64,000 bases of DNA from Periplaneta americana. Its lineage: Eukaryota; Arthropoda; Insecta; Blattodea; Blattidae. Under the pieces are notes generated by a model that saw only the letters and a program-made list of their open reading frames with translations, was not told the origin of the DNA and did not search any database. The DNA lies in the NCBI RefSeq assembly GCF_040183065.1, contig NC_091124.1, positions 61,636,501 through 61,700,500 of the forward strand, read 5' to 3'. Made by a program: the position numbers and the translations under genes. Below, one piece after another: positions 908-63,679 of this stretch (positions are counted from its first letter, which is position 1; every line of letters begins with the position of its first letter).

Positions 908-3748
908 CAGACATCGGATTTTTAGGCACTAAAAATTGCAGTTTTAGGCGCCTAAAATAAGCTCAAAATTTGTAAAATTAGGCTCTATTTTAATGAAAAT
1001 AGGCATTTTAGGTACATCAAGGTATCATACTTATTTCTTTCACTGAAATTTTTAGTTATACACTAAAATACGCACAAAAAAGTATGTTTAAACATTAAAA
1101 AATAATACTATATTATATTTATAAACAGAGCTGCACAAATTTAATATATTGAAACTAATGAAATAATGATTATTGATGTCAAGATTAAGTTATTGAAATT
1201 CAGTTCCATGCTCAGACTTTATTATAATTATCTGCACAGTACACCACCAGAATTTTTTCTAAATTCTCCACAGTTAACCTTTGCCTTTTGTCACTGAGAA
1301 TCATTTTGAAAGCAGAAAAACTTCTTTCAACCGAAACTGATGTGAGAGGCGCAAATTTTAAATTAGGTACAATAGAAACATCAATACTTACTGGAACATT
1401 TACACTTTCCCCCGATATCACTCTTGATACTTTTTCCAACAATGAAAATCCTACATTCTTATTTAATACGTTGTCCCACTTATTTTTAACTTTTTTCCCA
1501 GTTTCGCCCAAAGCAGAATGTATGTTCACTTGAGCTTCCTTTACTATTGCTATTTGGCTACAAAGAGATTGTTTTTCACGTTCTAATTGCTCAATGCTTG
1601 CAGGTATGAAAGAAAAGTTTGATGTTATGTAGGCAATATCGTTTTTCACTCGTGAGTCATTCAGACAATCTTTCACTGCTTTCACACACGCTGCACCATC
1701 AGTTTCAGGTAATTTATCAATAACTGTGACCACTTCTTTAAAATACTTAGAATAATACACCACTGACTGAATCCAGGTTCCCCATCGTGTAACAACCGGC
1801 TGAGGTGGGAGTGGGATATCTGGAAAGTTCTCTCTGAATATTGAAATCCTGGATGGGGCTTTACAAAAACATTTTTTTGTGTTAGAAATAAACTAATTGA
1901 CAAGAGGAAATTCATTCCGGATTGTTTCAGAAACCCTGTGAAGGCCATGTGCTAGACAGGTTACATGCGTGAGGTTAGGATAAAATGTTTTAAGAAGTGG
2001 AGCTGCAGCAACCATGTATGAGGCAGCATCAGTACAAAACAACAGAACTTTAGAATCGTCTATATTACCTGAGTATAAAGACTGTAGGCCTTTATTTACA
2101 AAATAAGCAATGGCTTGGCTATTCACTTTCGAAAGTTCCTTAACACATACGAGGTGTGGAATCGAAGGTCCTTCAGGACTAAGTTTTCCTACTACCATAT
2201 TTACTATATACCTATTCATAGGATCTGAGGTTTCATCCACAGAGACCCATATGTAAGAATCACCTATATCCTCCCGAATGGAAGCTAAAGTTTCATTGTA
2301 TATTCTGTCTAAGTAATTTTTTCTTAGGGTCGACTCAGATGGGATATTTTGTTTGCAGTATTTTTGTAAAAACTGTCTTAAAACCGGATTTTCAATTGCA
2401 TTCCAGGGAATGTTAGCAGCAACAAACACTCTGGTTAAATCAGTATAGAAATTGCTGCTGAGATTGGATGAAGTAGGCTGTGTTAGTAAAGTTTGTTGCA
2501 GTTGATTTTTCTGCTGAGCTTTAGCCTTATGAGTCGCTCCTTGCACATGCTGCTTTAGGTGGCACTTCTTTTCTTGCGAAATCTAAAAATGTGAAGTAAA
2601 CTGAATTAAAATAAAATCCTAATTGTTGTATTGCCGTATTTCTATCACAAAGTTAGTGGGTTCGAACAATAAAAATTTTAATGACCTGCAAATACTTTAA
2701 CTATCGGAATTTAAAAGGTTAAAGTGTAGTGGTCTTAAAAAGAATTATACCTCAGGATAGCTCAGTCAATGTATAAATATTATAGGCCTACTCATTAAAA
2801 TTAATAGAATTTATATATTTCAACTATTGTTACATACCTGTTTGCTGCAAATCTTGCAGAATATTATTTTTCCATCATAAGTGAATTCTGAATATTCTGT
2901 TAGCCATTGCCGGATCAATGTAGATTTTGCACTTATATTTTTCGGCATTATCGCGTTAAACTTCACAGGAAAACGTCCTACCGCTCAAAAATTCTCAACA
3001 CAAATAAGGTGAGGGAAATAGCAACTGTTAACGAGCATTCAAATGAACTGTTGTTATTGAGATTCAATTGGACAAAAATACTAAGTTCCACTTATTGTTG
3101 CATTTCCTTGTAGTGTTAACACTAGGAGGGCCATTCTTTAAATATTTTGTAACGGTTTACCCTACTAATTCGGAGTTTTACGACTTTTCATAAATATTTC
3201 AAAAACACTCTTTCTCCAAAAATTGTGATTTTATGACACTCTGAAGGGCAGTACAGCTAATCGGTTTCAGACCGAAAACAGTCATTTTTATAGTATAGTA
3301 TATCTCTGAATCGGTAGCAGCACATGTTGTGATTGTTGCCTGCTTCAAAACTAAGGTTGGTTCTTTGTCGGCATTTATGCCTCCAAACATGTTAAATTCG
3401 GTGAAATCTATTGCGAGTGTCGTGAGATTCAAAACATTTTGTTTCCTTTATCAATGGTTTCATGGCCGGTGTGAAGCAAACTTTCCACTTTTTAAATGCC
3501 TTAAATTTCGCAGTGAATGCATGTATAAATTATAAAAAGTATGAGTAAAATGCGAAACTTTACAGTGAGTTAGGCATTTTTAGGCGAATATTAACAAATT
3601 AGGCTCTAATAACCGTTTTAGGGCATTTTAGGGCATTATAAAACTCTTTGAATACCTTTCAATTTCCATGAAACACAAATATTAATAATTATTTTTACTT
3701 TTCTCCTAAAGAAACAAAATAGGCATTTGCCCTTGAATCCGATGTCTG
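908..3748 (-). mobile_element. hAT DNA transposon, complete ends
   Basis: The element has perfect 13-bp terminal inverted repeats (CAGACATCGGATT at 908-920 and its complement at 3736-3748). It is flanked by an exact 8-bp target-site duplication, TTTATAGT (900-907 and 3749-3756), the hallmark of the hAT superfamily. Subterminal regions are rich in TTTTAGGC/TTAGGC words at both ends, probably transposase binding sites. It carries a minus-strand, two-exon transposase gene. Both ends and the TSD are intact, so the insertion is relatively young. Confidence 0.93.
1212..2948 (-). pseudogene. hAT transposase, BED finger, one in-frame stop
   Basis: Two exons. Exon 1 runs from the ATG at 2946-2948 to a GTATGT donor after 2838; exon 2 begins at 2582 after a TTTTTAG acceptor and runs to 1212. 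The joined frame has about 490 residues. Residues 31-55 form a BED-type zinc finger (FCKIC, then H49 and H55: C-x2-C-x14-H-x5-H) split by the intron. Downstream are VDETSD, CLAHGLHR and TRWGTW, and near the C-terminus the hATC dimerisation motif SVSVERSFSAFK with KRQRLTVENLEK. The N-terminus resembles CGGBP1-like hAT proteins of arthropods. One TAG at 1893-1895, between PLVN and FISNTKK, is the only break I find, so the gene is a very recent pseudogene or rarely read through. The inactivating change is a single codon. Confidence 0.88.
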
Positions 3749-4551
3749 TTTATAGTATATAATTAGATTATAACGGCGAACAAAAGTGAAGTGTATAAGT
3801 ATTCTGTGCTCGTTGAACAGGCCTACCACGCTATATGACATGCAGTTGTTTTTTCGTTCGCAACGCTCCTGTCCGACGAGTTAGAAACAGAAAGATATAG
3901 AGTGGTCATTGCGCCGCCATGTTTGAAGAAATTTGAACGACCGTTGGAAATGAACTTATGCGCCCAAAACAAAGTGGGCGTGGTGATAACTGACATTACA
4001 ATAGTCAGCTGTCTTAATTTCGTTTGCATAAATCAGTTAAACTGAAGTGGAAAAACCTAGTATTTCGTCAAATACGTGCTAGGAACTTAATCTAAACTTA
4101 TGTACGCTAAATTTAAAACACTTGAGCTATTCCTAGAAGGAATGCTTAAAAGAATAACCTAAGCAAAATTGTCATGTAGTATGACAAGAAGTCCTAGCAA
4201 ATATACTGAAGAAAATGTTAATATTCCTAGGTTCTTTTAAATGCGACCTGCAAGATTGCCTATAAAATGAACGAGTATGATTCGGATGATTTTATTAAAT
4301 TGTTTTCCCAGTCTCTACACGTTGCAAAACTACTTACTATGCCATAAGATATAGAATGAAAGTAGGCCCTATATGTAGTAAACAACCTTTACCTCCAAGC
4401 TTGTAATGTGGGTGAAACATGACAAAACACCCTTTCAGATTTTTTGTTACAGTAAAGTATAATTATTATCGAAATGTGAACGTGAGGCCAACAGCCGGCT
4501 GGTCTGTCTGAGCCTTTAAAGGGCTGTGGCACCACAGATACTTATTAGTGT

Positions 4552-4640
4552 ATAATTGAGCACCCACGTACAATAATGGGGCAAGTAGTTACGAAATATA
4601 TTCATACTTACCCCATTATTGCACGTGGGTGCTCAATTAT
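4552..4640. repeat. Near-perfect palindrome (36-bp arms)
   Basis: Arms 4552-4587 and 4605-4640 are reverse complements with two mismatches, separated by 17 bases. Each arm reads ATAATTGAGCACCCACGT and onward. Such a hairpin may be a tiny fold-back element or the fused ends of one; I see no clear TSD. Confidence 0.8.
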
Positions 4641-4710
4641 GTTCTTTCATGTCCTTCCAGTCAAAATACTAACAACAATACGACCTAGCCCAGAGTTTTG
4701 CGTTATTTTG

Positions 4711-5050
4711 GATGCGAGTGTCGAAATACAATTTTAATATTTGATTGCTATTACTAGGTTTGAAACGGAATTGTAGCGGTTTTATCCGTATTTAGTTTAA
4801 CTTTATTACTAGTGAACCATTTATTTGATTAATCGTTTGTCTTCCAAATAGGCCTACTTCTTATCAGCTACAGCTCATCGTCTTCTTGTATAAGCAGTAA
4901 GGACAGAAGGAGCAGAAATAAAGGATGCCGGTGACGAAATACAGTTTTAATATTGTATTGTATTTGTTTTTCACTGGGTCTGAAACGGAATTGTATTGGT
5001 TTTATCCGTATTTAGTGTAAGTACATTACCAGTGAACCATTTATTTTGTT
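4711..5050. repeat. Diverged tandem duplication, about 125-bp units
   Basis: Units at about 4711-4830 and 4924-5050 share GAAATACA, TTTTAATATT, TGAAACGGAATTGTA, GGTTTTATCCGTATTTAGT and AGTGAACCATTTATT in the same order. The offset is 213 bases and the copies have diverged clearly, so the duplication is old. No coding potential. Confidence 0.75.
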
Positions 5051-5951
5051 TATGCTGGGCGTTGTTACACATTTATGCATGAAAAAAATGCTGCTAATTA
5101 ACAAAACTATGGACTTAACTTCATAAAATTTACATGAAATATGATATATCAGTTGTCTTTTTCCTTTTGACATTGCAGTTATATGCAGCACTCACAATAG
5201 GCATGTTTTTTCTTCGTTTTTTTGTACTCCTTACCTCCGTTAAACAACATTGTAAGCAGACGAATTTTTACGAAGGTGGGCGCTTAGCTCAGATCTGCCG
5301 TGTTTCGCGGTGGCACCGCAAAGAGCGCTGTACAGGACAACATGGCCACTCTATAGTCTTCTCTTTCTATCTCGTTGCTCCTGTCATGTCCCATCTTTCA
5401 GAAAAACAAATATACACTCTACAGAATATAATTTCCCGCATTACTAATTCTGTTTGGAAGCAGTTGATTTTATTTGGATGAATACTTTATTTTATTTTAT
5501 GCCAGTTAAGAATGATCAAAATGAGGACAAATTAACTGTAAAGTTGCTCGAAAGGTTGTTCGTCACGTCATGAAAATTTTGTCGTTAAATGATGATACTA
5601 AAAATCGCCAGCTCCAATGACTTGCCAATGAAGTTGGCAGCCATGGTGCAATGATTTTGGCGGGGTGTATGGCAGTGATTTCTCTTGATGTTGTGTTCAG
5701 AATTGTGAGGATATTTTCGTTCGTACATACTACTTGTTTATAAACATACTTTATCAACTATTGAAATCAGAAAAAACAGATTGAGACATGCAAGGTATGA
5801 TTAGACGTTTAATATAGGTTATAATGAAATTAGCCTATGATATGGGCAAATGCGCCGAAAGGAGTTAAAAGGTGACATTTTTCGTGGATTACAATCGAGT
5901 GCCGTAATTTTCTCAGTACATACCCTACACTAGGTTTCTCATCCACCTGTA
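5051..5951. other. No gene supported
   Basis: The longest open frame (5134-5481, 115 codons) has a hydrophobic start but no family resemblance, no neighbouring exon signals and ordinary AT-rich composition, so I do not call it. Around 5330-5400 there is weak inverted similarity to about 3865-3910 (AGAAAG/TATAGAGTGG words), suggesting an old inverted-repeat element between them. Confidence 0.35.
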
Positions 5952-6938
5952 TAGGTCAATTCCACGACAGGTTGGACATTCAAGTTAAAATTAAATATCG
6001 TGTTCAGTATATGTTCTTTATATCATTTTCTTCAGGAAAGTTCATATTTTTAGAAATTAGCAGAAAAGTTCGATTTATTTAATTCATCTTTGTTTTACAT
6101 ACATCCGAAGTGAATATTTTTAGTGTGTACTTTTGATCTGTCAAATTTACTTTGGCAGTTTGCTGCCAAACCATAACTTAGAATTAATAAACAATGCTGT
6201 TCTCTGTTATAATTCTATTAACAGAAAGAGAAGACTTTAAAATCAGTATCAATTTACTTTTATGAATGTCAATGAGTGTAGAAATTTGCTATTTTAAAAA
6301 TAAGTGTTTTTATGTAACACCTGTCACAGATTATGCTTAACGTTACTCACTTGCTCTCAGTTTTTGGCCTGAAGGCACCAATTTTTGATAGCTAAGTCGA
6401 AATATGATGCCAAAAGTATAGTATTTTTTAAACTAAAAATAAAAAGTGTTTTAATGTGACGGGTGTTACAAAATTAGAGCACGGAGAACACAGGAATTCT
6501 GTATTTTGATTTATTGCAGGTAGTTCCCACAACACATTATTAAATAGGTTTCAAATGTTGGTAAATCTGAAGTTTAAGTTATGAACAGTCGTCAATACCT
6601 GTTTCTTCGAAAAGCTTACTTGTCTGAAAGGTTTCCCACCAAATTTACATTAAGCTGAATGTTTGGTCGAAAGTTCTGATTTACATAAAAATTATAGGCT
6701 ACAAAGGTAAATGTACTTTTGTTCTATTTTAGTTAATCATACTACTTTTCTATTCTGTAACATTATTTCTTGCTTAACAAGGAATGAATTACTGAAGATA
6801 TTAACCACTAGCATAACCTAATAATAAATGTAGATTAAGCTGCTGCATTTTTAGGATACACGAAGCTGCATGTTAACCATGCAATTATTTATTCTAACGT
6901 TTTGAGATAGCTGGATACCATATATATTTAATTGCAGA

Positions 6939-7482
6939 ATGGGGAAATCAGCAGCTGAGAGGCAACCTGAATGCCGTAGGCGAAGAAAATTAAATAAAGA
7001 TAAAATTCTGTGGTGTTCGAGTAAAGGGGGATAAGTAATTTTTTGTGCAGATGGAATTTTGTTCCCCAGATGAACACACAGTTAAATTATACAAGTGAGT
7101 GTGCAAAAATGAAAAGAATACTAGCAGTTGATGTGTTTTGTGTAGAAAAGTATTTTCAGTAAGAGTTCCAAGTTTAATTTTCATTTATCACCAAGCTCAT
7201 TTTATGACATCTCCCTTTACCCAAACAACACAGATATGAAGACTATTTGCAGAAGGAAAGAGAGAGGGAAAAGCTTAGGAGAACAAAGAAGCTATCAAGA
7301 AAAGAACTTACTGCTTACAGTAAGAAAACAAAACTGAAAGTTTGAAACAAAAGGGCAAGAAAAGCTGCATTAATAAACACTAGTGTTTTCAGTGATTCAC
7401 CTGTGTACGAAATTTCAGTCACTAGGAAAAGCTGTCCAAATAGTAAAAATTGAGACAGCTCTGAGTATGATGCTGCTTAAGT
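6939..7482 (+). pseudogene. Basic SAERQ-type protein remnant
   Basis: An ATG just after an acceptor-like TTGCAG opens MGKSAAERQPECRRRRKLNK. A matching second part starts near 7234 (YEDYLQKERERE, KLSRKELTAYSKKTK) and has an in-frame TGA and TGA before its end at about 7480. The highly basic, coiled-coil-like pattern (SAERQ, then Y-E-Y-x-K-x-R-x-R) recalls N-termini of uncharacterised insect and cnidarian proteins often found in repeats, but I cannot give a function. The two parts are separated by a segment with inverted ends (7006-7235). It may be the original gene of the outer element; it is broken now. Confidence 0.45.
7006..7235. repeat. Possible small MITE splitting the SAERQ frame
   Basis: The ends TCTGTGGTGTTCGAGTAAAG (7008 on) and the complement of CTTTACCCAAACAACACAGA (7214-7233) match at most positions, giving an imperfect 24-bp inverted repeat around about 225 bases. 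Removing it would join KLNKDK to YEDYLQK. No clear TSD, so this is tentative. Confidence 0.4.
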
Positions 7483-7664
7483 TGTTGCATTTTGTTTTGT
7501 AATTACAGTTTTAGTAAAATTTATTAAATTCCATTGTGAGAAATATAAATTTATATTTAGCATTTGTTGAAGTGAGCATATATACTAAAAAGTAAATTTA
7601 TGTTAGGAAAAACAGTTTAATATCAAAAGCGGATCTGTTTTTCTAGCTACACTCTTTAGATTTT

Positions 7665-8612
7665 ATGGATGTATTTTTTTTGTTTCTATCACCTTTACTT
7701 TTTAACTTCGCTTTAGAATATGCCATTAGGAAAGTTCAGGATAACAGGCAGGGTTTGGAATTGAACGGGTTACATCAGCTTCTTGTCTATGCGGATGACG
7801 TGAATATGTTAGGCGAAAATACACAAACGATTAGGGAAAACACGGAAATTTTATTTGAAGCAAGTAAAGCGATCGGTTTGGAAGTAAATCCCGAAAAGAC
7901 AAAGTACATGATTATGTCTCGTGACCAGAATATTGTACGAAATGGAAATATAAAAATTGGAGATTTATCCTTCGAAGAGGTGGAAAAATTCAAATATCTT
8001 GGAGCAACAGTAACAAATATAAATGACACTCGGGAGGAAATTAAACGCAGAATAAATATGGGAAATGCGTGTTATTATTCGGTTGAGAAGCTCTTATCAT
8101 CCAGTCTGCTGTCCAAAAATCTGAAAGTTAGAATTTATAAAACAGTTATATTACCGGTTCTTCTGTATGGTTGTGAAACTTGGACTCTCACTCTGAGAGA
8201 GGAACATAGGTTAAGGGTGTTTGAGAATAAGGTGCTGAGGAAAATATCTGGGGCTAAGCGGGCTGAAGTTACAGGAGAATGGGTAAAGTTACACAACACA
8301 GAACTGCACGCATTGTATTCTTCACCTGACATAATTAGGAACATTAAATCCAGACGTTTGAGATGGGCAGGGCGTGTAGCACGTATGGGCGAATCCAGAA
8401 ATGCATATAGTGTGTTAGTTGAGGGACCGGAGGGAAAAAGACCTTTAGGGAGGCCGAGACGTAGATGGGAGGATATTAAAATGGATTTGAGGGAGGTGGA
8501 ATATGATGATAGAGACTGGATTAATCTTGCACAGGATAGGGACCGATGGCGGGCTTATGTGAGGGCGGCAATGAACCTTCGGGTTCCTTAAAAGCCATTT
8601 GTAAGTAAGTAT
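7665..8612 (+). pseudogene. Non-LTR retrotransposon, 5'-truncated reverse transcriptase
   Basis: A 308-codon open frame contains only the C-terminal part of a LINE polymerase. It has [11 protein letters not shown], then the catalytic YADD in [13 protein letters not shown], the thumb region [12 protein letters not shown] and KYLGATVTN, then the downstream [21 protein letters not shown] and [17 protein letters not shown]. The stop is at 8589-8591, followed by a short 3' tail ending in GTAAGTAAGTA, a microsatellite-like tail. The frame is open from truncation to stop, so insertion was fairly recent. A fragment of the same family ends at 26908-26957. The clade is not certain (RTE-like layout). 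Confidence 0.88.
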
Positions 8613-9027
8613 TAAATATTTGTATTAATTTACTTTAGAGCGTCAGAAGTACAATTTTGAACCTGTCAATATCATATTTGTAATTTACTAAGTGAAAGTT
8701 AACTTTAAAAAATTGCATACTTTGAAAACATATGTCTACCGTTGATATTAGGCTACCAGTACTCTTAAGTCTATGTAGTGAACCACAGAAAATGTATGTT
8801 CTATGGTTTGAGCCAAAAAATAAAAACCAAATGTGAAATTTCTTCAGACAAGTAACACCCGTCACATTATTAAGTAACACCCGTCACATAAGATTAATTA
8901 AATTGTAAGTGCAAGGCTTAATATTTTAATTACATCCATTATATCACTCAATTCCTTGAACTTTCCTCTCACTGAAAATAGGTAACACCAGGGGCGAATG
9001 CTGGTCACGAAAGTTAGGCTTGCTCTT

Positions 9028-9396
9028 TTATTGATGGGGGAAGATATAATTGATCTGGCTTGCAGACTTTTCGTGTCTTGTAATAGACAATGTTAAAGTA
9101 TTGAAACTGTCAAAGCCACTTTTACACCATACACCGTTATCTGTAGAAAATAACAAACATGGCCAACAAAACAGTTTATTCAGTTTTTTCGATCCTGCCA
9201 ACCAATGCGTATTGTTGTATTGAGATGTACTGAACGAGCGCACATATTCTCTATTTTTCTCCTTGTGCTGTCTTTTTAAATCTGGGAGCTCTGGACATGG
9301 TCTGCCGTTCTTTATAATGTCGGTCTTCTCTTGAATAGTCCTCCGGGAAAATGGATTTGATAATAAAGTTTCAATAACACACATTTCCGAACTCAT
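9028..9396 (-). pseudogene. hAT transposase N-terminus (TTF-type zinc finger)
   Basis: The 122-residue frame from the ATG at 9394-9396 contains HWLAGSKKLNKLFCWPCLLF followed by GFDSFNTL and RHEKSASQINY. This is the W-x-C-x-C-W-P-C-L-L-F pattern of the TTF zinc finger that begins ZMYM1-like hAT transposases. Family proteins are several times longer; here the frame ends at FPHQ near the left end of the element, so the catalytic domain is gone. A related, separate copy lies at 58403-59407. Confidence 0.8.
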
Positions 9397-10077
9397 TGCA
9401 ACACTTCAAATTAACGTTTAAGAATTAATAATACATGCAGCAGCTAACATATGGATTCCGCTCATAAAATTACATTACACTCGCAAATCACAGCACATTC
9501 ACTGGTAAAAACTGCTGCCAATCAGTGTTGCCAACTCGATTCTTAAACATCCGCTGTGAAGCCTTGCAGAAACCGCTAAATTGCTATATTGTCCATGGTG
9601 GGAATATAATGGTGAAGCAGTGCGCAGCCTCGCCCATTCTCCTACTACGTGATGACGTCACTCGGGAAGCATTGCAGACTCTCTCGCAGCTTGCTAGCTT
9701 AGCTCAGCTCAGCTCTGTAAGGTTTTGGAAGTGGGGTAGGTTAATTGATATGAATACCAAGAAGCTGTATTAACTAATCCCTTCCCTACTAATGTCTTGT
9801 CAGGAACGTGATGCGCTCCCAAAGCATAGCCATCTAGACATGCCGTCTTTGTGACGCTGCGACTTTTATTTACAGTTTTCATTCAAGCTGTCAAATGCAG
9901 TTTTTTCAAGCTGTCTATTTAGAGGGTTGTTGTATGTTGTAAAACGATCTTTTGTGAAGAAGAGGAGTTATTTTCCTCTAAATATACGCGAAAGGTTTTC
10001 CAGAATTCTAACTGTTTGAATAAAAGTGCATTGAAGTTCTGTCCTGCATTCCAAGTGGAATTAACAAAGTTTAAGAA

Positions 10078-10700
10078 AGGGAATCAGAATCGGGGTCTTG
10101 TAAGAGTTATTGGCAATAAAGTGACATGACAGAAAAGGTCTGTCTACGAAGCACAACATTCACATGGTCAACATAAAGGAAAAAGGGTAACAGTGAAGGG
10201 GAATAAACAGTGGTAAAACTGAAGGGCGTAATAGAGTACAATAACGTTATGTTGTGGGTTGACTGTCAGGTCAGCGTCAGAATGAAGTTTTATATCCCTT
10301 CTCCATTATGGGAAAATACGTAAAAAAAAAAACAACACAAATGTTTCTTCAATACTGTATAATGTTTATGGTACTTTTCAGCTTTTCAATATCTACGTAA
10401 TTGCATGTAAGACCATGAAGGGAAGCAAACCCAGGAAGGAAAGGATCTATACAAATCTTCGACTTGACCTGGAAGCAGGCATTTTATAGAGGGTTAACCT
10501 TGTCTAACTGAAGTGTTAGTGAAAGGGGAGGGGATGCTGGAGTTACGACGACAATATTACAAACAAGCTGTTGGGCTTATTTCCCCCCTCCCGTCATATA
10601 CCTACCATCCACAGAAAAAGAAGCCAGTAAGAACCTGCAAAGTTTGTAAATCTCACAAGAAAGAAGCGAAACAATGTGGGGATGCAAACAATGTTTTGTA
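10078..10700 (+). pseudogene. piggyBac-like transposase, C-terminal remnant
   Basis: Broken frames on the plus strand give NQNRGLVRVIGNKVT, then VIEYNNVMLWVD (compare the piggyBac Y-N-x-x-M-x-G-V-D motif), a hydrophobic stretch, YTNLRLDLEAGIL, and finally KKKPVRTCKVCKSHKKEAK, the beginning of the cysteine-rich C-terminal finger. Several frameshifts and stops separate these pieces. The later cysteines of the finger are missing. Confidence 0.6.
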
Positions 10701-11296
10701 CTGGAGTCTTTCGAAACTTAACATACTGTTCAAACTGTTACCAAATTATGAGTATAATATCACAATTTGTAGTAAAAGACCCATGTTTATTGCAAACGAC
10801 CTCCACCTGCCTTTAAATGTCACTTACCGCACACCACCAATTCACTGTTTGCGCGTGGAGATTTAAATAGAGATTCCAGGCAATAAACCCGTCCTTTTAA
10901 ATCTGACTGCATGAACTTAAAGGTAGCAACAAGCAAACTTTAGAAAAGAGTCAATAATGAACATTTGTTAAAGGCAGGTGTCGAATTAATTACGTTCATT
11001 CTGGTGTACTGCTTTCGTTAGAAGATATCTTAAGTTCATGGACTCAACTCGGTTTGATCCATTAAGGGTGATGGACAGAATACGTTCTGAATCAGACCTT
11101 CGATTTCAGGCTGGCTTTAAAGAGGCTGAAAATGTGAATTGCAACAAATGTCAAGTGTAGCATGATGAAGTGTCCCTAAAAGAAGGCAAATTCGGAAAAA
11201 AAACACATTCTCGATAAAATGTGGACTTAACGCATTTTGATTCCGAACTCCTCAAATACGTTCAATAAAGTTTCATCGTCAACATTTTTACATTAC

Positions 11297-11654
11297 TTAA
11301 AAAACACACCAGTTTTTCATTCCAGTGATTCTGCATATTTCTTTTACTAAAATGCTCCTGCACACAATTTTAATATATGAATATTTTTTACACAAATTAA
11401 GTCCACAATTTCCACATCTGACATTAATTTTCGTAATGTGAACGGCTTTCTTGTTAGCAGCTAGTACTTGAAATAGACCTTGATTCACCCTCACCAACCA
11501 CTTCTGTATTATCTTCCTCACTACCACTTTCTTTCTTCAAATCTGCCGGTAAATCAATTTCCAATAGCACTATAATATCACGTTCACACAAAACATTAAG
11601 GCTGCTATTATCCACAAAACAACTCATATCTATGTTCTGTATCCCTGAATACAA
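11297..11654 (-). pseudogene. Acidic N-terminal fragment, piggyBac-like
   Basis: The minus-strand frame from 11654 reads through DIIVLLEIDLPADLKKESGS followed by EEDNTEVV. An acidic, D/E/S-rich start is typical of piggyBac transposases. A candidate piggyBac end, GCTAGGG followed by TTAA (12044-12054), lies upstream of it. The opposite orientation to the C-terminal piece means the element was rearranged. The fragment alone would not be identifiable. Confidence 0.4.
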
Positions 11655-12349
11655 CTAGGTTTGAATAAACACCAGTAAAGAAAGAACAAATTTACCAACT
11701 CAAGTTTCTACACTGCAAGTAAATGGTAAAGTGGAGAATTGAAACAGTAAACGACTTTAACTGCATTACAAACAGTTACAACAATGGACAAAAATCACAG
11801 AATTCAAACTATAAAATGTTTAAAAGTGGGTCATATGAAATGCCAAGGGTGGGTAAAATCTGTCCACTAACAAATACTTCAAATTATTAATCTGCTATAT
11901 TTGAAATCTAAAACAGTACACATGTGTGCATAATTTATCATGTTAGAGACAAATAGAGTAAAGGTGAAGGCTGTCAGATTTCATTAATTCGAAAAAATTT
12001 AGAAAATAAAAAGGGTGGGCAATTTTTTCCCAACCGTGATAATGCTAGGGTTAAGCGAGAAAATAATTATTTTATGCCCATTGATTGACGCCTTTTTTGC
12101 TCCTCTATTGACATTCGAGACAATTGAATCCTTCCATTTACTGAAGCCTTTTCTGTCTGGAAGTTGTTAAAATATACCACAGCTTTAACATTTTATGAGA
12201 CTTAATTAAGTCCTTTTAGCTTAGAAAGTTTTGAAGAACTATGAGAAAATTATTCCCTTCTGCGGAGCCACTCATACATGAAAAATTTTAACACTAAGAT
12301 ACACAGGAACATACTAGTTAATAGTTATTATAATGCTGTAATTACTCAC

Positions 12350-12961
12350 GTTTCGTTATTTAGGTCTAATGCACTATCCTCTGATACATGTTCGTCTGAA
12401 TTGGTTTTGGAAGTGGCCTGAAGAGTACATGAACTATTGGCAATGATGTCATGAATTTCTTTTCTCCTTCTCCGTTTTTCACATCTGTCCAATCTCAGAT
12501 TATCTGTTGATTTTCGTTTCAAGCAAGACTGCGCCAGAGCTTTTGTGGGTACAGCGTCTACTTTCAGATTACGACTGCTTTTTGGTTCATAATTTAGGAG
12601 TTTCTGCTTTAAAGGTACTTCGTAACTTGACTCCTCAAAATGAAGTGAACATGTTCGAGCTGAAACAACATTAAGTCTTAAGATTTTTACCCCCTTTCTT
12701 TTCCCTCAAAGCATCTATGGAATAAGTCAAACAATAAGTTTAACATGAAAATATATTTTGCAAATGAGTTGTGAAGCAAATAAAATTTATTAACATGCGA
12801 GAAAACTCATCGTGCTGTAAACTGACTTCATCCTCCCTTCTACAAGCATGCAACCATTGTCTTGCCAAGTCTTCATTCTTCGGAAACCTATAATATTTTA
12901 CGTCAGTTCCTTTTGTTTTTCGATTGTAACTCAAACAACCAGATACTGCACATCCAGGCAT
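12350..12961 (-). pseudogene. THAP-domain DNA-binding exons of P-like transposase
   Basis: Exon 1 (12961 to about 12795) starts MPGCAVSGCLSYNRKTKG and continues YYRFPKNEDLARQWLHACRR. Exon 2 (12659-12350, after a TTTCAG acceptor, ending at GTGAGT) starts RTCSLHFEESSYE and then has a basic stretch KRRRRKEIHD. Together these give the THAP C2CH finger (C4, C9, the C-x2-H-F), with the conserved P, W and F. The splice phase between the exons is off by one base with canonical sites (exon 1 would end at AT|GTTAAT), which suggests a small deletion. The catalytic part is absent, so the product could at most bind DNA. Confidence 0.78.
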
Positions 12962-13997
12962 ACTAATAGCATGTGTCACATTAATAGCATTACTGATACA
13001 AGAATAACATTCAATATAATATATACTGTATAAACAAAGAATTAACCCCGTGCACGTACACACAACAGCTGTTTGTTTTGTTCCTCGAGGACTGCGGTGC
13101 GAATTAGCGCGCCGCTGCTGCTTCCCAAGTGACGACATGCGCAGTAGAAAATGAGTTTGAGTCGACCATCTGCTACACCATTATATTCCCACCACGATAT
13201 TGTCAATGTAAAATTATATTATTTTGCCGCTGTGAGTGCTAAAAGTACCCGCTAAATCCCTAGATCAGCAATACAAGTTTCATAAATTTTACCCGCTAAA
13301 CTAATGCCGAAAAACGCTAGATCTAGCAGGAAGACCGCTGAATTGGCGGCAACACTGCTGCTATCTGTGTAACGTTAATTATAGTCTCTGGTGTAGCTCT
13401 CGGACCAGAGCTTCATACAGCATATAACAGAAGCATGTGCGACTGGGACGGATTAGGAACTAGGAAGAAGGCACTTGTGCGCGCATCATATTCTCGCTGT
13501 TTCTACGTCTTTCCTGTAGCTCCGAGAAACGAGCAAGCGTTGCGATCTTGCGGTGCGCAACCTGCAGATGGTATTATGCCTAGACATTATTACAAAAATC
13601 AAAAGAAATTTTAATGTACGTAATCCCATTTTGAGAAATACACATTCTACGAAAATATTGGGCTTGCGCAGCAAGCATAGCATGCCCGGAGAAATCGCCC
13701 CTGGGTAACACAAGTAATTCAAACTGTGAATTTCACAGAGTTATCAGTTAAACTGTATCATTAATTTATGCATGTCTTTTTCATGTTACACCCGTCACAT
13801 TGTTTATTTCATTTATATCACCTGACAAATAATGGTTAGAAAAAAAATAATTAGTTGTGTCTGACAAGCAAGAAGTGGAGATTCATTGGAGAACAAAAAA
13901 AACTGGTAAAAATATTTTATTAATTATTGTATTCTAGTTAAATTTCGAAGAATCTCTTTCTGAAAGTAACACCCGTCACAGTGGAATTGACCTATAC

Positions 13998-14723
13998 ATA
14001 ATTTAAGATGTGTGGTGCTGTTCTCCCACTATATGCAGATTTTTGTAATTCAAAATCTGAGAGTTTCCATCCATATGGAAATTTAATTTCGGGATGTATA
14101 TTATCATTAGACATTGGACAATCTCTAGCGGAATTTTGTCTACAAGATGTACGTCCTACATATTGCATATATTTGTTACGGAACAGGAATTAAAGTTATT
14201 TTGTTTTTTTTTTTTTTATTGAAAACTTTGTAACGTTGCTTATGACAGGATTAGTATATTTAAATTACTGGAGACTATAAGCGACTTTCTATGAACTAAC
14301 AATCCCATTCTATAAAGATAAATAAGTATAGCCTGTCCCACATTGATGTAATAGATCTGATGGTGGGAGCACGAGGTACCATATTGTTGTCACGCCAGGA
14401 GAAGGCGGCTGAACTACTTAGACGGGGCGGAGGGGAAACAGTCGCGCATGCACACCACGCTGTTCACTGCAATATTCCTGTTTCACAAACATCTACTGCA
14501 CGTGTCTATGAATCTTTGCGACTTTGTGAAAATAATAGTGGGGTTTTTACTGTAGTGTTCTATTAGTTTCAACAAGACAATTGTTTTCAGTATACCACAA
14601 ATCTTGTATTGCTTTAGTTATCCTTTGCTTTTCGTGTTAATAGTGTTGATAATATAGTTAATAGAATTTATGTTATTGTATACTGATATTTAGATTTATA
14701 GCAGTTTTTTGTTTATTGTAAAT
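13998..14723. other. No gene supported
   Basis: AT-rich sequence with short spurious frames. It precedes the decayed DDE transposase and may include its lost 5' end. Confidence 0.4.
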
Positions 14724-18640: not shown

Positions 18641-19526
18641 TATGACCCTTGATAGCTCCTTCCAATTAATTTTTTGGTACTAGGCTATATTTCTAGCGGT
18701 CTAAGCAGATTCGGCATTACTTGAGTCCAATAAATTAGTCTTCTCTTTAACTGTTTGTAGATGCTAAGCTTATCAGGCCACATTCACCATCGAGTTAACA
18801 CTTGTGCAGTTGGAAGTGGAATATTACGTGCTATTGATCTAAATGACTGAACTCTTTGATTGTCAGTTAACAAAAAATGTTCTTTATGGAGGCTTGCAAG
18901 TCAGCGATCTATCACATGATGTTTGAGTGTTCGTATTTCTTTATGGTGATTCATACATTCTATCTCTCATGCAGCTCCCTGCTTTTTGTGTTCACGAGGG
19001 AAAAAATCTTGTAAACCCTATAAATATATCATATAGGTCTTAAAGTATTGAAAATATTATGCATTTATAAAAATGAGGAAAATATACACTTATATGCAAC
19101 ATAAAACAATGCTTAATAAACTCAAAAGTTGATAATTCGTATACATAATGTGTAAGCATACATTTACACTCTCCAGAAAAAAGTATGCACATGCATGAAC
19201 TTATAAGCCCAAGTTATTATATTGTAATTGTTTTTATACATGAAATTGCCAGTTTTTTTATTTCTGTTAATCCGTATTTTGCTAATCTAGTCAACTCTCA
19301 ATCCCAGTTGGTCCAGATTACAGAGGTTTTACTGTATTTGTGATTTATTTTCTAATGGTAGCATTGATCTAATTGAAGAGCTCTCTCCCAAAACAAATTA
19401 AGTCCATTTTCAGTAATTTGACAAGAAGGACAAAAATTCTAGATGCTGTTTCGATTTATGTTGGATGTTTACTGATTGTCTCTTATTATTGTACATAAAT
19501 ATATGTTTTCAGCATAGATAAAATAA
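18641..19526. other. No gene supported
   Basis: AT-rich sequence, no open frame with family resemblance. Confidence 0.4.
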
Positions 19527-19528
19527 TA

Positions 19529-20862
19529 CGAGGCGCATCCAGAAAGTAAGTTTCCCTATTTTTTTAAAAAAAAAGAACACACACTTTCAGGAAAACATTT
19601 ATTGGCAACAGGTACAGCAATGTTTCAGCTATTTTTCAATATAGCCACCATCAGAATTGAGACACTTGTCATATCGTGGGATCAACTTTTGTATCCTTCT
19701 GTCGTAGAATTCTGCCGCCTGTGAATGGAACCAGCGTGTGACAGACGTCTTCAGCTCTTCGTCGTTGCCAAAACACTCACCGGAGGACAGGAATTTCTTG
19801 AGGTGCAAGAAAACGTGAAAATCGCTGGGAGCAAGATCAGGACTTTAGGGTGGATGATCAAACAACTCCCAGCCAAATTCCGTCAAAACAGCTGCTGTGC
19901 GCCGAGCCGTATGTGGACGAGCATTGTCATGGAGGAGCACAACACCTGCAGTAAGCATTCCATGCCTCTTGTTTTGAATGGCACATCGCAATTTTCGCAG
20001 TGTTTCACAGTAACGGTCAGCATTCACTGTTTCACCTCTTGGAAGGAAGTCAATGAGCAGAATGCCCTTTCTCTCCCAGAACACCGTGCATATCACTTTC
20101 CGTGCCGACAGCATCTGTTTGAATTTCTCTCTGACCGGAGATCCACTATGCCGCCAATGCATTGACTGCTGCTTGGTTTCCGGGGTGAAGTGCGAAATCC
20201 AAGTCTCATCGTCCATGACGATCCTGTCGAGGAACTCGTCGTCATCATCGTGATATGTTGCAGAAATGTCAGTGCTGCTCCTAAACATTGCATTTTGTGT
20301 TTGGATGTCAGGTTTTTCGGCACCCAACTGGCACACACTTTTTTAAACAGCAGGTGCTTAGTGACAATCTCATGCAACAAGGATCGCGATATCTGCGGAA
20401 AATGGCTGCTGAGCTCCTTAATCGTGAAGCGACGGTTCTCCGTGATGCACTGCCGCACCAGCACAACACGATCATCATTGATGAGGGACGGTCGCCCACT
20501 GCGCTCTTCATCATGGACACTTTGACGACCTTCGGAAAACTGTCTACACCAGCGACGCACCATCTGCTTACTCATTATGTTCGGCCCATAGACCTGACAG
20601 AGCTGCCGATGAATTTCAATTGGCGCAATGCTTTGTGCATTAAAGAACTTTATCACCGACCGAACCTCGCAGGCGGCGGGAGAAGGAATAAGAGCTTCCA
20701 TTTCGGACCACTGCTGCCATGCTACTGGCACCAGGCGGGACCTGTCCGGCTGGCATATGATTGATACATCATAGATCTGTTACGCATGCACAATTGACAC
20801 GGCTAATTACGTTTACTTTCAAGGGGAAAAAATCGGGAAACTTACTTTCTGGATGCACCTCG
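19529..20862 (-). mobile_element. mariner transposon copy 1
   Basis: TIRs begin CGAGGCGCATCCAGAAAGTA (19529 on) and, complemented, CGAGGTGCATCCAGAAAGTA (ending 20862), flanked by TA at 19527-19528 and 20863-20864. It is 1334 bp with one transposase gene on the minus strand, the usual mariner plan. The second copy lies at 62359-63677 in the opposite orientation. Confidence 0.95.
19629..20731 (-). pseudogene. mariner transposase (DD34D type), two breaks
   Basis: It starts MPVAWQQWSEMEALIPSPAA at 20731. The N-terminal half has the two helix-turn-helix regions (KQMVRRWCRQFSEGRQSVHD). The catalytic half has DDETWISHFTPETKQQ, then VLLHDNARPHTA and, after a stop, SPDLAPSDFHVF. Near 20262 one base is missing (CTGCAACATATC against CTGCAACAGTATC in copy 2), so the frame shifts at FLQ. 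A TAA at 19845-19847 replaces the usual tyrosine in HPPYSPD, just before the third catalytic Asp. Repairing the missing base gives about 367 residues to the final TAG, apart from that stop. Inactive; the same TAA is present in copy 2. Confidence 0.93.
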
Positions 20863-20864
20863 TA

Positions 20865-21507: not shown

Positions 21508-24500
21508 TTCACTATTTTTCATCAAAATATTAGGGGATTAAAACAAAAAACTGATGAATTGATCACTTCTTTAGCAACTCAAAAGCATAAACCTCAGATA
21601 TTATGTATAACTGAACATCATATGAAGCAACAGGAAATACTACAACTGTCTTTACATGGATATGTATTAGGTTCTCATTTCTGTAGACATGTCTTCCAAA
21701 AAGGGGGTGCCTGTATTTTTATCAGAGAGGATCCATTATTTAGTAAAATTGATATATCTGATTTTTGCCTTGAACAAGATATTGAAATCTGTGGAATACA
21801 AATTGGTTATGAGATATCAAATTTAATTATCTTATGTGTTTGTAGGGCGCCAATGGGAGATTATAAGAAATTTACAACTAACTTAGATTCATTATTGAAA
21901 AGACTTTATAAACCACATACCGAATTTGTAATCTGTGGTGACATAAACATAGATTATCTATCAGAAAGCTCACGTAAAAGAAAATTAAACTCACTTCTTG
22001 AAACTTATAATCTTAGTCACACAGTAAGTTTTCCAACCAGAACACAAGCTGGAAGTAGTACTGCCATTGATAATATATTTATAGATAAAAGTAGATTGAA
22101 TTCCTATTCAACAGTACCATTAGTCAATGGCCTGTCTGATCACGATGCACAAATTCTAAGTGTTTTCAATATGAGTGAAAAATTCCAAAGTGTTAATCTA
22201 AAAATAAAAAAAAGGATTATAAATGCTGAATCTCTTCATCATTTAAATACATGTCTACAAAATGAATCTTGGGAAAATGTATATAGTACCAATACCATTG
22301 ATATTAATACTAAATTTAATGCATTTTTCACTACATTTACGAATTATTTCAATGAATGTTTTCCAGTCAAGGTGGTGAAAAAATATAAAAGTAAAAACAT
22401 GTGGATAACTCAGGGAATTAAAATATCATGTGCTAGAAAAAGGAATCTATATTTAATGAGTAGGAATAGTGATGATCCTCATGTTCTTAATTACTACAAG
22501 AATTACTGTAAAACTTTGAAAAAAGTTATAAAAGATGCAAAGAAAATGTATCTGAATGAAAAAATACAAAATTCAGATAATAAGATTAAAACTATTTGGG
22601 ATATTATTAAAAATGAAACTAATCGATATTCAAAGAGTGAAAATATTACTTGCATTAAAATCAATGATAGTAAAATAGATAACCCAAAATCAATTGCAAA
22701 TCATTTTAACGACTTCTATATAAATATTATTCAGAACTTAAACATTCAAGATTGTGCAGAAGATGCTGCACTTGGTTACCTAACTGATGCATTTAACACT
22801 GAGTTTTTAGGTCTCAAATTTATTCCCACTACCGCAGTAGAAATCATGCATGTGATAAAACAACTAAAAACAAAATATTCCTCTGGATATGATGAAATTC
22901 CAAGTAAAGTTCTGAAAGCTTGTTCTGAAATATTATCCCCTCCGTTAAGCTATCTATGCAATTTGTCAATGCAATGTGGTATTTTTCCAGAAAGACTCAA
23001 ATATTCAATAGTAAAACCAATACCGTAAAGTGGGGTGACTTTGAACGCCGAGGTGACTTTGAACAGTAATTTAGCGCCTTCCTAAATTAAATACTGTACC
23101 CAATTGCGAAAAAACTGAACTAATTTATTGACGACTTAAACAGTTTTTTCGCAATTGGGTACAGCATTTAATTTAGAAAGGCGCTAAATTACTGTTCAAA
23201 GTCACCTCAGCGTTCAAAGTCACCCCACTTTGCGGTATACAAAAAGGGAGATAAATGTACTATTGCTAATTACAGACCCATATCATTATTAACAACATTT
23301 TCAAAAGTGTTTGAGAAAGTTATGTATAATAGATTATATCATTACCTGGAGTCCAACAATATATTAGTTTTAGAACAGTTTGGATTTAGAAAACAAAAAT
23401 CGACAGAGAATGCTGCTTTTAGTTTGGTGGATGAAATACTAAATTCATTAAATTCGAAACTACATGTAGGTGGGATTTTTTGTGACTTGGCTAAAGCATT
23501 TGATTGTGTAGACCATAGTATATTAGTAAAAAAATTGAAGTTTTATGGTATTAAAGATGAGATGTTGGGTTGGTTTACATCGTATTTATCAAATAGAAAA
23601 CAAAAAGTAGAAGTAAATGTACCAAATAGTCATAAAGTTACTTATTCAGAATTTAGAAATATTAAACATGGTGTTCCGCAGGGGTCAATTTTAGGTCCAT
23701 TGTTGTTTCTAGTTTATATTAATGATTTAGCCTTGACTATAAACAATTCATCCCATGTAATTTTATTTGCAGATGATACAAGTGTAATTATTTCAAGCAA
23801 ACAATACGATCATTTTATAAACACTTCTAATACAGTGCTGAATCTAATGAATGAATGGTTCCATGCAAATAAACTAGCACTTAATGTTGATAAAACCAGT
23901 GCAGTCAAATTTAGTACACACAATAGTGCTCAGGTTTCCTACAGTATTCGATTAAATGGAACTCATCTCAAAGAATCTATAAGCACAAAGTTTCTTGGTT
24001 TAGAATTGGATAATCACTTGAACTGGAAAACGCATATAGAATGTATTACTCGTAAATTGAGCTCTGCCTGTTATGCATTAAGATCCTTATCTACTATTGG
24101 TGATATAAACTTACTTAAAATGTCATACTTTGCATATTTTCACTCTGTAATGAAATATAGATTAATATTCTGGGTTAACTCGTCAGAAGCTAAACACGTT
24201 TTTGTTTTACGAAAGAAAGCTATAAGAATAATGGCCGTTGTGCATAAAAGGACATCATGTAAAAATATTTTCCGAAACTTAGAAATCTTGACTTTACCTT
24301 GTGAATACATTCTTTCCCTAATGATGCTGTATATTAAGAACCAAGATAAATTCAGTACTAATCAAGACATTCATAATTTTAATACAAGACATAAATCAGA
24401 TCTTCATCTATCCTCTGTTAGTCTAAGCTGTTTTAAAAAAGGAGTTCGCTATTCATGTATAACAGTCTTCAATGCACTGCCTAATTATCTTAAAGATTTG

Positions 24501-24581
24501 AAGAACCACGAGAAAAGGTTCAGAAAAGAATTAACCATACTCATACCTTCTACACAATTGATGAATTGTTTATGCTTGTGA
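21508..24581 (+). pseudogene. LINE ORF2: endonuclease plus reverse transcriptase
   Basis: The endonuclease domain begins FHQNIRGLKQKTDELI, with ITEHH, VICGDINIDYL and the C-terminal LSDHDAQ motif. The RT domain has YSSGYDEIPSKVLKA, then the interruption, then NYRPISLL, FDCVDH in a VGGIFCDLAKAFD block, HGVPQGSILGPLLF and the catalytic FADDTSV. A thumb region STKFLGLELDNHLNWKTHI follows. A MITE puts a TAA at 23026-23028; removing it and one TA joins codon ATA (23020-23022) to TAC (23238), in frame, giving about 935 residues. The frame also shifts at a T-run near 21515, so the true start is upstream or lost. It looks like the Jockey/CR1-L2-Daphne range of LINEs. Confidence 0.9.
23023..23235. mobile_element. 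Palindromic MITE in LINE ORF2
   Basis: The 213 bp are flanked by TA (23021-23022 and 23236-23237). The arms of about 96 bp are nearly perfect reverse complements (CCGTAAAGTGGGGTGAC against CCGCAAAGTGGGGTGAC), with an internal repeat of GGTGACTTTGAAC and a short loop near 23115-23140. Excision restores the host frame exactly. No gene. Confidence 0.93.
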
Positions 24582-26313: not shown

Positions 26314-28161
26314 GACCTTATGAAAGATATAAACTACATTGAGAAGTTAAATGCATATATTGAAAACAGTACTTCAGATATTCAACTATGTAATGGTGAT
26401 TCAACAGAAGAGAGTACGGTAAGGGTCTGTAGTCTGTGGATTGTAATATTTTCATGATGTCACTTGCTCTATCTCAACAGGAAACACTGAAGCAGACTTA
26501 CCATCCATCCTCTGCTTCTCAGCCATGGAACTTGGTGTCTCCTCAGTACTCTGTGCCATCATCAAAGAAGAGTCTTCATCATACACCATCTCGTCGTCGT
26601 ATTACACCTTTATTGAGAGAGGAATTTGATGACATTCCAAAGTAAGTGTGGAAGATACCTTGCTTCAACTCATTGGTACCTGCATTCTTAGTTAGTGTCA
26701 CATAACAGTAGCCTAAGTTTCTTCAATTCTTGAGGAGATAGAGCAGGAAGTTGCATAGGTGAAACGAAGGATAACCTATGTTTCTAGGTTCAAACAGCCT
26801 GCCAAATGGTCACCAACATTTTACGATTATAATTAAATTTATATTATCATTGTCATATCATCATCCATGTCCAAGCAGCCAAACTCGGCCCATGATGGTA
26901 TTACACTTATAAATGGCTTTTAAGGAACCCGGAAGTTCATTGCCATCCTCACATAAGCTGTGCTTGTAAGTACGCCTTGAAGACTCTTTGTATCAGAGCT
27001 CAGAACTGAGCCATTTTTGCGTTTTAAATGTCTTGTGAAGACGATACAATGTATACCTGACACTATTTGATATTTTATTACCCCATTGTCGTAGAGATCT
27101 TTCCACAATGTTTTCCATCTTGAAAATTCTCTAAATTACATTTGTTAATGTTTGTTTTAATCTCTGTCTGCTCTTTGATCCTTCCAGCAGGTTCACTAAT
27201 ACTACCTACTAATTTCTCCCTCCTCAGTTTAGAATAAGTTTCTCAAAGTGGTGGCATGAAAGGGTTAATGGACGTACATACCAAGATTTTTTTTTTTTTA
27301 CAGGTACATGAAAGGTCGACTTACATATGAAACAGTCTGTAATTTTATTGCTGCTTTTAATAGCACTTTACAGAAGAAATATCAACTCTTCAGTCGTCCT
27401 ATAAATACTCTCAAAGGGAGAATGTTGACTCAGTATGATATATATAAGAAGCAAGAAAACAAAGAGACCATAGAGAAAGGTAACTTCTGTTGTCATTTTT
27501 GCTGCATGCAATGCATATGTAACTTTATACTTATTTTGTAGAGATAGTCATTATGTGTAATGGTTGAACTCAAATGCAGTTAGTACAGCAAAGGTACTAT
27601 CACATACTTTGATAGGTAGTGTAAATTTAAATTTATAAGATACATTTTCGTGACACCCTGGTGAGCCAGCCAATGACAGGCTTAAGTTGCAGATATACGA
27701 CAGCCAGAGCATCCCCATTGTCTGAAGAAGACAATGTGAAAGCTGTGCGATGTGGAAGTGTCGCAAGGATTTTTTTACTCTTCAGTATACTTTGCTCACG
27801 TCATGTCTCCGCCCAACATCCTGTCTACGTCTTCTCTGTATGAATTGCGCCTAAGATTTTTGTTACATGTGTTTCTCGGTTCGTTGCAGATACTGATTAT
27901 ATCTATTTATTTATAGTTATTAATTATTTGTTTTATGACTGTTTGCATATGTTATATCTGTGTTTTGTTGTTTGGAGACATTGGTGATATGTCTCTCTGG
28001 GGCTTACAGGTATCTACTTTTGTACTGCTGAAGACCTGAAGTCAATGGGAAAACTGAAGTTTGATAAGGCTGAACAGAACATAGTGAATATCCTGAGACA
28101 TGCAAAACGAATGAGAGAGATTCGAAGTACTGGCATTGTCTGTTACACTGTTTTAAATTGA
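26314..28161 (+). CDS. SKA1: SKA1, spindle and kinetochore-associated protein 1 (last four exons)
   Basis: Exons are 26314-26418, 26481-26641, 27304-27479 and 28010-28161. Each has a clean acceptor (TTTCAG, CAACAG, TTACAG, TTACAG) and GT donor, and the phases 0, 2 and 1 fit. They encode 197 residues and the TGA stop. Exon 1 here (DLMKDINYIEKLNAY) matches the coiled-coil part. The rest contains EEFDDIPKYMKGRLTYE, the start of the C-terminal microtubule-binding winged-helix domain, and ends with ILRHAKRMREIRSTGIVCYT. Human SKA1 has about 255 residues, so roughly 60 N-terminal residues lie upstream and were not found, perhaps beyond the LINE. In the Ska complex (SKA1-SKA2-SKA3) the protein links kinetochores to spindle microtubules. 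The basic residues near the C-terminus agree with microtubule binding. A LINE fragment sits in the third intron seen. Confidence 0.9.
26908..26957 (-). pseudogene. LINE 3'-end fragment in SKA1 intron
   Basis: The reverse strand reads YVRMAMNFRVP then stop and AAAAGCCATTT, matching the last codons and tail of the LINE at 7665-8612 ([11 protein letters not shown]). Only the extreme 3' end is present. Confidence 0.7.
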
Positions 28162-49670: not shown

Positions 49671-50486
49671 TGTGAAGAGGCGCCTTACTTCTTTCGCATA
49701 GGATCACACAGGACTTATCTATCCGGATCCTGAGTTAGGATTTATCTTATCAGGTTGTCTAGAATTTTCTTTTTCGAAATAAATTATTGTACACATGACT
49801 TTTTCTTGAAACAAATACAACGACATATAAGTAATAATATTGAAGAATTTGGCCTTCTAGTTACTCTTCGTCTCTCTTCAAATTCTTCTAGCACTCCAAT
49901 GATAGCGAGTCATAGATGCCAAAGGTATATCGCCTTTAGTATTTTTGAAACATATCCAAACAATCTTCTTTAATGTATATTTGCATTATCATAAATTACA
50001 CTCAAGTCATTATACTTAAGGGGATAGGGTGGTCAATTTTGTAATTTCCACATTTTTACATTTAGAATTGTGAAACTTTCACAGCATGTACTTCATATTC
50101 ACACAATACCCACAATATACTAATAAATTGTTATTAACATTTAATAATTGTTGCAAACAAAGAAAAATAAACATTATGAGGATACGTTATTTTTTTTAAT
50201 AACTCTGGAAGTATTCGAGATAAATTCATGAATCTTTTTTTAAAGTGAAGCTGGTATCATAATCTACATTTGTGGGTATTTTTATTTTCCTAGGACGCAT
50301 TTTACTGCTTCAAAATGCTGTCTAAATGAATTCTAATAAAAAGTGTTGCACAATTATAAACAAATAATTGATTATCATCCTAATATCATTCAGATTACAT
50401 TCATCACCCCCCCCCCCAAATGCAGATAATATAATGATGAACATATGCTAAAAATTTCATTGATTAAAGTTCTCGTTAACACTTTG

Positions 50487-50724
50487 TTAAAAACATAAAA
50501 TTTACTCTGTCACATGTTAAAAGTGTTAAAATTGTTAAAAAGGTATTTACCTTCGACAGACGGCCCGTTTCGACGCTATTTGTCGTCGTGTTCAGTGTCT
50601 CTTGAACCAGAGACACTGAAGACGACGACAAATAGCGTCGAAACGGGCCGTCTGCCGAAGGTAAATACCTTTTTAACAATTTTAACACTTTTAACGTGTG
50701 ACAGAGTAAATTTTATGTTTTTAA
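50487..50724. repeat. 238-bp palindromic MITE
   Basis: Arms of about 115 bp are almost perfect reverse complements, meeting at AGAGACACTGAA / TTCAGTGTCTCT around 50618. Motifs include ACGGCCCGTTTCGACGCTAT and GTATTTACCTTCG. No coding capacity. Confidence 0.9.
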
Positions 50725-50893
50725 AAATTTCAGCTCATTATCTCTAATAGTTTCAGAGTTATTCGATAGTGAAGTTCATAAATATAGAAAAATATGATTA
50801 TTGAGAAAACTGAAGTCAAAGTTACAAGTGTTTTTTTAATACAGTAACTGATTCTTTTTTAAACTTACCGATCTTCTGTTGGCCTATGGTCTT

Positions 50894-56342: not shown

Positions 56343-57532
56343 GTGTAATCTTTTGGAGACACCGTTCTCTCGTTGGTGCGCAGAAGATAAGCAAGATATT
56401 TTAAAATACCGCAGAACAACACCTCCAGAGCCTTCTTTAGTTACAAGCCGGGGCCATTCGTCGGCAACACTGTAATTATCTGTCATCCGGAGGCTGACCG
56501 TACAGTACACGTGTTTGTGCTAATGCCGATTTCCAATGTAAATTAATGTTATAATATAAGTGTGTGTCGATGGAATTATGTTTGCGGTCGTACCAAACGT
56601 TAATTGTTGATGTATTATAAACTAAATGCGTGTTGGTGATAAAAAAACAAGACAATAAATGAAAATAAAATGGTTGCAGTCTTTGGGAATTTTTACGGTT
56701 ATGAATGACAAAGTAATTGACTATTCTATTAAATATTGTATAACCACATTTTTATATTCTTATTTGTGATTTGTGTGTATCAGAATTCTAGTCAAATTGT
56801 TGGGTCTCGCCTGCTAGGTATATCAATAAAGTTACGCCGTTGGTTTTCAAAGTCATTGTAAACAGCTGTTTTGTGATCCCATAAATGTTGCAGTTTTGTT
56901 GAAGATTCGGAATGCCTGCTATACGTCAGAATTATCTATAATTTGTACATGCATATAATCACTTTGTTGGTTTGGTCAATGTTACTTATATCCCGCCCAC
57001 TATAGAGACATAGGCCAATTTTACACATATTTAGTATAACTTGTTGCTTCTTTGACAGGTTAGGTTTGGTTAGTTTAGGTTTTTGTTATAGCCTACCTTG
57101 CATATACGATTATAGCGCAACATTGGCAGTGATAAAAGTGAAATATTCGTTCAGTGGGCGTTGGATACTCTACATTCGGTATTTACAGTCCACTGAGTTT
57201 ACGCTAATTGATACATACATGTACTTAATAGATAATGTTGCGTTTTGTTACGTATTATGTTGAAGGGATGTGTTTTCATTTTTTCATAGATTGTTTTACT
57301 TGGCTTAACTGTATTTACATCCTCATACTTTTATTATAATAGGAATGTCAATAGTTTCTTCTGTTTACATTTTATTTTAGGCCTATTTGCATAATTCACA
57401 TTCTTGGCTTGTTTTCTGTAGTTATATTTATTTAAAATTATATTTTAACAAGTTTATAACAAATAATTTAGGATAACAGTATTGTTATGGTGACTGGCCA
57501 GGTTCAAACTAAAACTGGCTTCCTGGACATCT

Positions 57533-62356: not shown

Positions 62357-62358
62357 TA

Positions 62359-63677: not shown

Positions 63678-63679
63678 TA

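Follow-up and report, generated by a model that had tools for sequence, protein, structure and literature searches.

How many transposons lie one within another at this site of the Periplaneta americana genome, and what does their nesting say about the order of their insertion? The preliminary description of this stretch (the whole 64,000 nucleotides analysed, hereafter the window) saw in it a five-layer nest of five superfamilies. In the part examined closely, window positions 5500-14500, we distinguish the following features:

5950..13996, no strand assigned: outer DNA transposon of an unnamed family, with ends TATAGGTCAATTCCAC
6940..7459, plus strand: coding remnant of the outer element in two frames, MGKSAAERQ... 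(N-terminal), then YEDYLQKER...
about 7689..8606, plus strand: 5'-truncated non-LTR retrotransposon within the outer element, its start placed by eye
8981..8988, plus strand: left hAT target duplication GGTAACAC
8989..13703, no strand assigned: hAT-type element, internally deleted, with the terminal inverted repeat (TIR) CAGGGGCGA (exact, 9 bp) and an exact 8-bp duplication
9028..9393, minus strand: possible N-terminal hAT transposase fragment, within a 125-aa open frame at 9028-9405
9523..13357, no strand assigned: candidate small hAT-like MITE, whose ends CAGTGTTGCC and GGCAACACTG form a 10-bp inverted repeat
9586..9593, plus strand: left P-type target duplication ATATTGTC
9594..13196, no strand assigned: defective P-type transposon, whose inverted ends are flanked by an exact 8-bp duplication and which encodes a THAP domain
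12038..12054, minus strand: single piggyBac-like end TTAACCCTAGCATTATC, with no partner end
12346..12958, minus strand: the THAP domain that belongs to the P-type transposase, lying in two frames as if divided by an intron
13197..13204, plus strand: right P-type target duplication ATATTGTC
13704..13711, plus strand: right hAT target duplication GGTAACAC

The P-type layer was judged by three characters of its superfamily: terminal inverted repeats of about 27-31 bp, an 8-bp target duplication and an N-terminal THAP domain, all of which are present. The ends form a 25-bp inverted repeat (96%) from the third base inward, the second base differing between them, and the repeat extends imperfectly, with gaps, over 85 alignment columns. 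The duplication ATATTGTC is exact at both flanks, and these are its only two plus-strand copies between 5501 and 14500. The halves of the THAP domain, in two minus-strand frames, match Pfam at E 2.4e-9 and 7.9e-4; joined by hand with an X at the junction they match at E 3.3e-16, and the C2CH residues as well as the P, W, F and P are readable by eye in the joined domain. Against the PDB the region matches 2d8r, THAP2 (E 6.6e-5). The exact duplication, the inverted ends and the THAP domain thereby bear out the P-like element with target duplication first placed at 9594-13196. For the catalytic (RNase H-like) domain and the rest of the transposase, Pfam gave no match in the frames scanned; this absence bears on the autonomy of the element, not on its ends, and the element is filed as a defective P-type transposon.

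Piggybac-like pieces had also been described inside this element, and a decayed piggyBac insertion there is quite possible, if short of an even prospect. One TTAACCCTAGCATTATC end lies at 12038-12054, and by eye VIEYNN and a Cys-rich stretch in the translations of the interior, which we take to be piggyBac-transposase-like, resemble that enzyme. A piggyBac element, however, would have two CCC/GGG-type ends, each at TTAA, and here a single end stands without a partner: the next best match to TTAACCCTAGCATTATC within 5500-14500 is 12/17. Nor did Pfam detect a piggyBac transposase domain, either in three plus-strand frames (stops as X) and minus-strand pieces or in a favourably stitched version of the interior. 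The best Pfam matches in these tests were to unrelated families below cut-offs (Zn_ribbon_Com, E 0.078; FYVE_2, E 0.0066), and frame 0 of the interior found nothing in the PDB up to E 10. The piggyBac pieces are not confirmed, either by profile or by paired ends.

Another reading of the interior can be entertained tentatively: the element may be a P-MITE-like derivative, in which the P ends enclose an interior that is unrelated to them but that the family itself carries, with no separate inner insertion. P-derived MITEs with 8-bp duplications are described for Anopheles gambiae in the available part of one account (PMC1562414). Against this, the 5' part here still codes for a THAP domain, and the 64-kb window is without a second copy of the same interior.

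Around the P-type element, a CAGTGTTGCC-ended MITE layer within the hAT element is likely. Minus the P-type element and one duplication, the candidate measures 224 bp. Ends of the CAGTGTTGCC type are known from hAT MITEs in insects, and this speaks against the reading that the inverted repeat arose inside the hAT element by chance, which would leave three DNA layers and which we hold to be somewhat unlikely. In 2000 simulations, a 10-bp inverted repeat between the hAT and P ends arose in 28.7% with any start, in favour of chance, but in 3.1% with a CA start and in just 0.55% with a CAG start; across the whole window, 10-bp pairs with a CA start and no more than 10 kb apart are frequent, 118 being seen against 82 expected. 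Of the layer as first placed at 9523-13357, the 10-bp inverted repeat stands, but its flanks, CTGCCAAT and CTGCTATC, agree at only 5/8 positions, and the absence of an exact 8-bp duplication adjoining the ends again favours chance. So do the fold of the joined 224-bp element (z 0.68, with 156/200 shuffles folding at least as well) and the longest exact direct repeat nearby, the 8-bp ACTGCTGC at 9511-9518/13354-13361, which implies other ends. A further exact CAGTGTTGCC at 56463-56472 is without MITE-like surroundings (alignment score 32; shuffled mean 25, maximum 40). The simulation statistics and the fold of the MITE layer are weak and so count against the explanation by nesting.

Two other self-complementary structures were observed in the window: 244 bp at 50484-50727, which are 95% self-complementary and fold-back-MITE-like, and a 34-nt, 82% inverted repeat at 3876-5375, whose arms enclose a 36-nt hairpin (4552-4640) and which may be another nested pair.

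The hAT superfamily is characterized by short inverted ends starting with CAG and an 8-bp target duplication, and both are found at 8989-13703. The TIR CAGGGGCGA at 8989-8997 has its exact reverse complement at 13695-13703, and the 8-mer GGTAACAC is exact at both flanks, where its only two plus-strand copies between 5501 and 14500 lie; the hAT element with target duplication in the preliminary description is thus upheld. The null model for such structures was first-order Markov windows: a CAG-start exact 9-bp TIR with an exact 8-bp duplication within 10 kb occurred in 0/150 windows simulated with the CAG rule, against 2 in the real window. Because 0.2 are expected per Markov window when the CAG rule is dropped (20 simulations), the hAT structure would not be overwhelming without its family-type CAG start. 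The 12 structures listed of the 186 with TIR and duplication are mostly simple TA repeats, and those with a CAG start among them are the hAT element at 8989-13703 and another at 908-3748. The possible transposase fragment at 9028..9393 may be zinc-finger MYM-like, of the kind in zinc-finger MYM-type hAT proteins. Its 125-aa frame has no match in Pfam or NCBIfam and chance matches only in the PDB (best E 0.27); in viral and prokaryote contig collections, which are unsuited to an animal genome, the hAT frame gave 4 pattern matches, 0 of them confirmed.

The second hAT element, at 908-3748, was observed to have an exact target duplication TTTATAGT, inverted ends and transposase remnants (DUF659, E 3.8e-14; hAT dimerisation, E 1.1e-4).

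The hAT and P layers each have an 8/8 duplication, whereas the middle layer has 5/8, and these unequal flanks hint at either a passenger or a false layer. A passenger here would mean that some of the inner layers, the CAGTGTTGCC element foremost among them, had been part of the hAT copy before it jumped to this site; the difference in flanks favours this, but a flank of 8 bases is a small sample and the CAGTGTTGCC layer itself may be false, and we consider it unlikely. The general point stands apart from this case. As cut-and-paste DNA transposons may carry older passengers, nesting orders insertions into each other and does not give the order of arrivals at a site: if A lies inside B, A entered some copy of B, either here or elsewhere before B jumped. 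The earlier assertion that exact target duplications prove the order thus stands for what inserted into what, but not for arrival at the site. A single nest likewise orders individual insertion events and not superfamilies. Mismatches between the TIRs, and CpG, were weighed as a means of dating and set aside, the basis being too short and a family consensus lacking.

The outer element is bounded by a perfect 18-bp inverted repeat (5948-5965/13981-13998). It is flanked by TA on both sides, and its ends read TATA on both sides; because such palindromic ends hide the true length, the target duplication may be TA or TATA. Where chance would give 0.77 matches to the outer-end pattern in the window at up to 3 mismatches, 2 are found, and the end alone is for this reason weak evidence. 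The case for the element is carried by the perfection of its ends together with its inner motifs: a search of the whole window for GTAACACCCGTCACA at up to 3 mismatches, with a chance expectation of 1.07, gave six matches, and 6/6 lie within the outer element (4 exact, 2 with one mismatch). Its two coding stretches would be joined as exons; for this remnant (6940..7459) Pfam gives E 0.16 at best, and NCBIfam gives no match. When held against the Tc1/mariner criteria, the element has TA on both sides, with a length masked by the TATA palindrome, and no transposase was seen in its translations or by Pfam. That its TA/TATA target, its 15-base inner motif in six copies and its basic MGKSAAERQ... 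stretch mark a cut-and-paste superfamily without a curated profile is very improbable.

Elsewhere in the window a mariner-like element was observed in two inverted copies (19523-20864 and 62357-63683; 94.2% over 1343 columns), with HTH_48, of the Mos1 type, matched at E 3.9e-7 in the frame 20096-20779 of one copy.

The outer element also holds a truncated non-LTR retrotransposon, a side branch of the nest that is absent from the preliminary description. The open frame 7647-8591 matches RVT_1 (Pfam, E 4.6e-12), and the 3' end of the retrotransposon recurs on the opposite strand at 26905-26958 (90.7% over 54 columns). A clean target duplication around 7689-8606 was looked for and not found. The reverse transcriptase frame gave 2 pattern matches in the viral and prokaryote contigs, collections unsuited to an animal genome, with 0 confirmed, and strings from the retrotransposon tail found no match in the literature.

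Further retrotransposon sequences were noted outside the nest. Frames for an endonuclease and a reverse transcriptase are present in the non-LTR retrotransposon at 21508-24578, which is interrupted between 23025 and 23172; at the break lies a self-complementary stretch (23020-23238), perhaps an inserted palindromic MITE. A direct repeat at 31473-32549/39798-40872 (98.6% over 1077 columns), with RNase_H at E 1.5e-6 in its second copy, may represent either a pair of retrotransposon fragments or a duplication.

Taken together, the outer, hAT-type and P-type boundaries are nested and none crosses another, as had been claimed for the outer element, hAT 8989-13703 and P-like 9594-13196. The evidence supports three nested DNA transposons at the least, and probably a fourth. 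Of the five layers first proposed, three DNA layers are well supported and the CAGTGTTGCC layer is likely only, but piggyBac was not shown; the count of five superfamilies falls with it, given a piggyBac without profile support and a MITE layer without a clean target duplication. With considerable confidence, we regard the nest at this locus as an ordinary one, made up of cut-and-paste transposons that have decayed and are non-autonomous. The sequence shows the TA/TATA-flanked element with its repeated inner motifs as the outermost layer, a hAT-type element in the right part of it, and a P-type element within the hAT-type element, with a small CAGTGTTGCC-ended MITE likely lying between the two. 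The 8-bp duplications may be ascribed to staggered cuts of the target by each transposase, followed by repair, and the remnants may have been left by loss of the interior, as in abortive gap repair. The truncated non-LTR retrotransposon represents a separate entry into the outer element. Two further results count against this explanation by nesting: the 64-kb window has no second copies of the ends of the layers, and the hAT and outer open frames have no profile match.

The region is without visible present function. Neither Rfam nor a tRNA scan found a match in the window, and three DNA patterns had 0 matches in the viral and prokaryote contig collections, which are unsuited to an animal genome. 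A literature text search with the sequence strings of the elements returned titles unrelated to transposons, and the combination of P, THAP and cockroach returned none. As a separate observation, a 334-aa frame on the minus strand at 46202-47203 has BACK (E 1.3e-16) and BTB domains and may belong to a host gene as an exon.

In its significance a single nest adds little, since nested repeats and the reading of order from them are routine in repeat-rich genomes; the caution that it carries is that target duplications need checking at every layer before any clock is claimed. The reading of order from nesting was already established in REANNOTATE (PMC2672092), and other methods of this kind are TinT (PMC3014933) and interruption analysis (PMC2517846); as far as the available parts of these reports go, they draw the same inference as the preliminary description, but from thousands of nests as opposed to one here. 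Among the transposons themselves, the element at 8989-13703 shares with the hAT superfamily the short CAG-start ends and the 8-bp duplication, though with no transposase profile match. The P elements of Anopheles gambiae, in the portion of the account at hand, encode a THAP domain, have ends of 27-31 bp and are flanked by perfect 8-bp duplications (PMC1562414). The P-type layer is like these elements and the P-MITEs of that mosquito in its inverted ends of ~27 bp, exact 8-bp duplication and N-terminal THAP domain, and unlike them in that the THAP domain is the only part of the transposase found (PMC1562414). In Galileo, according to the available text, the inverted repeats are long (765/757 bp in the nearly complete copy), in contrast to the about 27 bp and a weaker stretch seen here (PMC4168063). 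The same source lists the C2CH residues and the P, W, F and P of the THAP domain of the P superfamily; these residues, duplications of 7 or 8 bp and many defective copies make up the likeness of the present element to Galileo and the P superfamily (PMC4168063).
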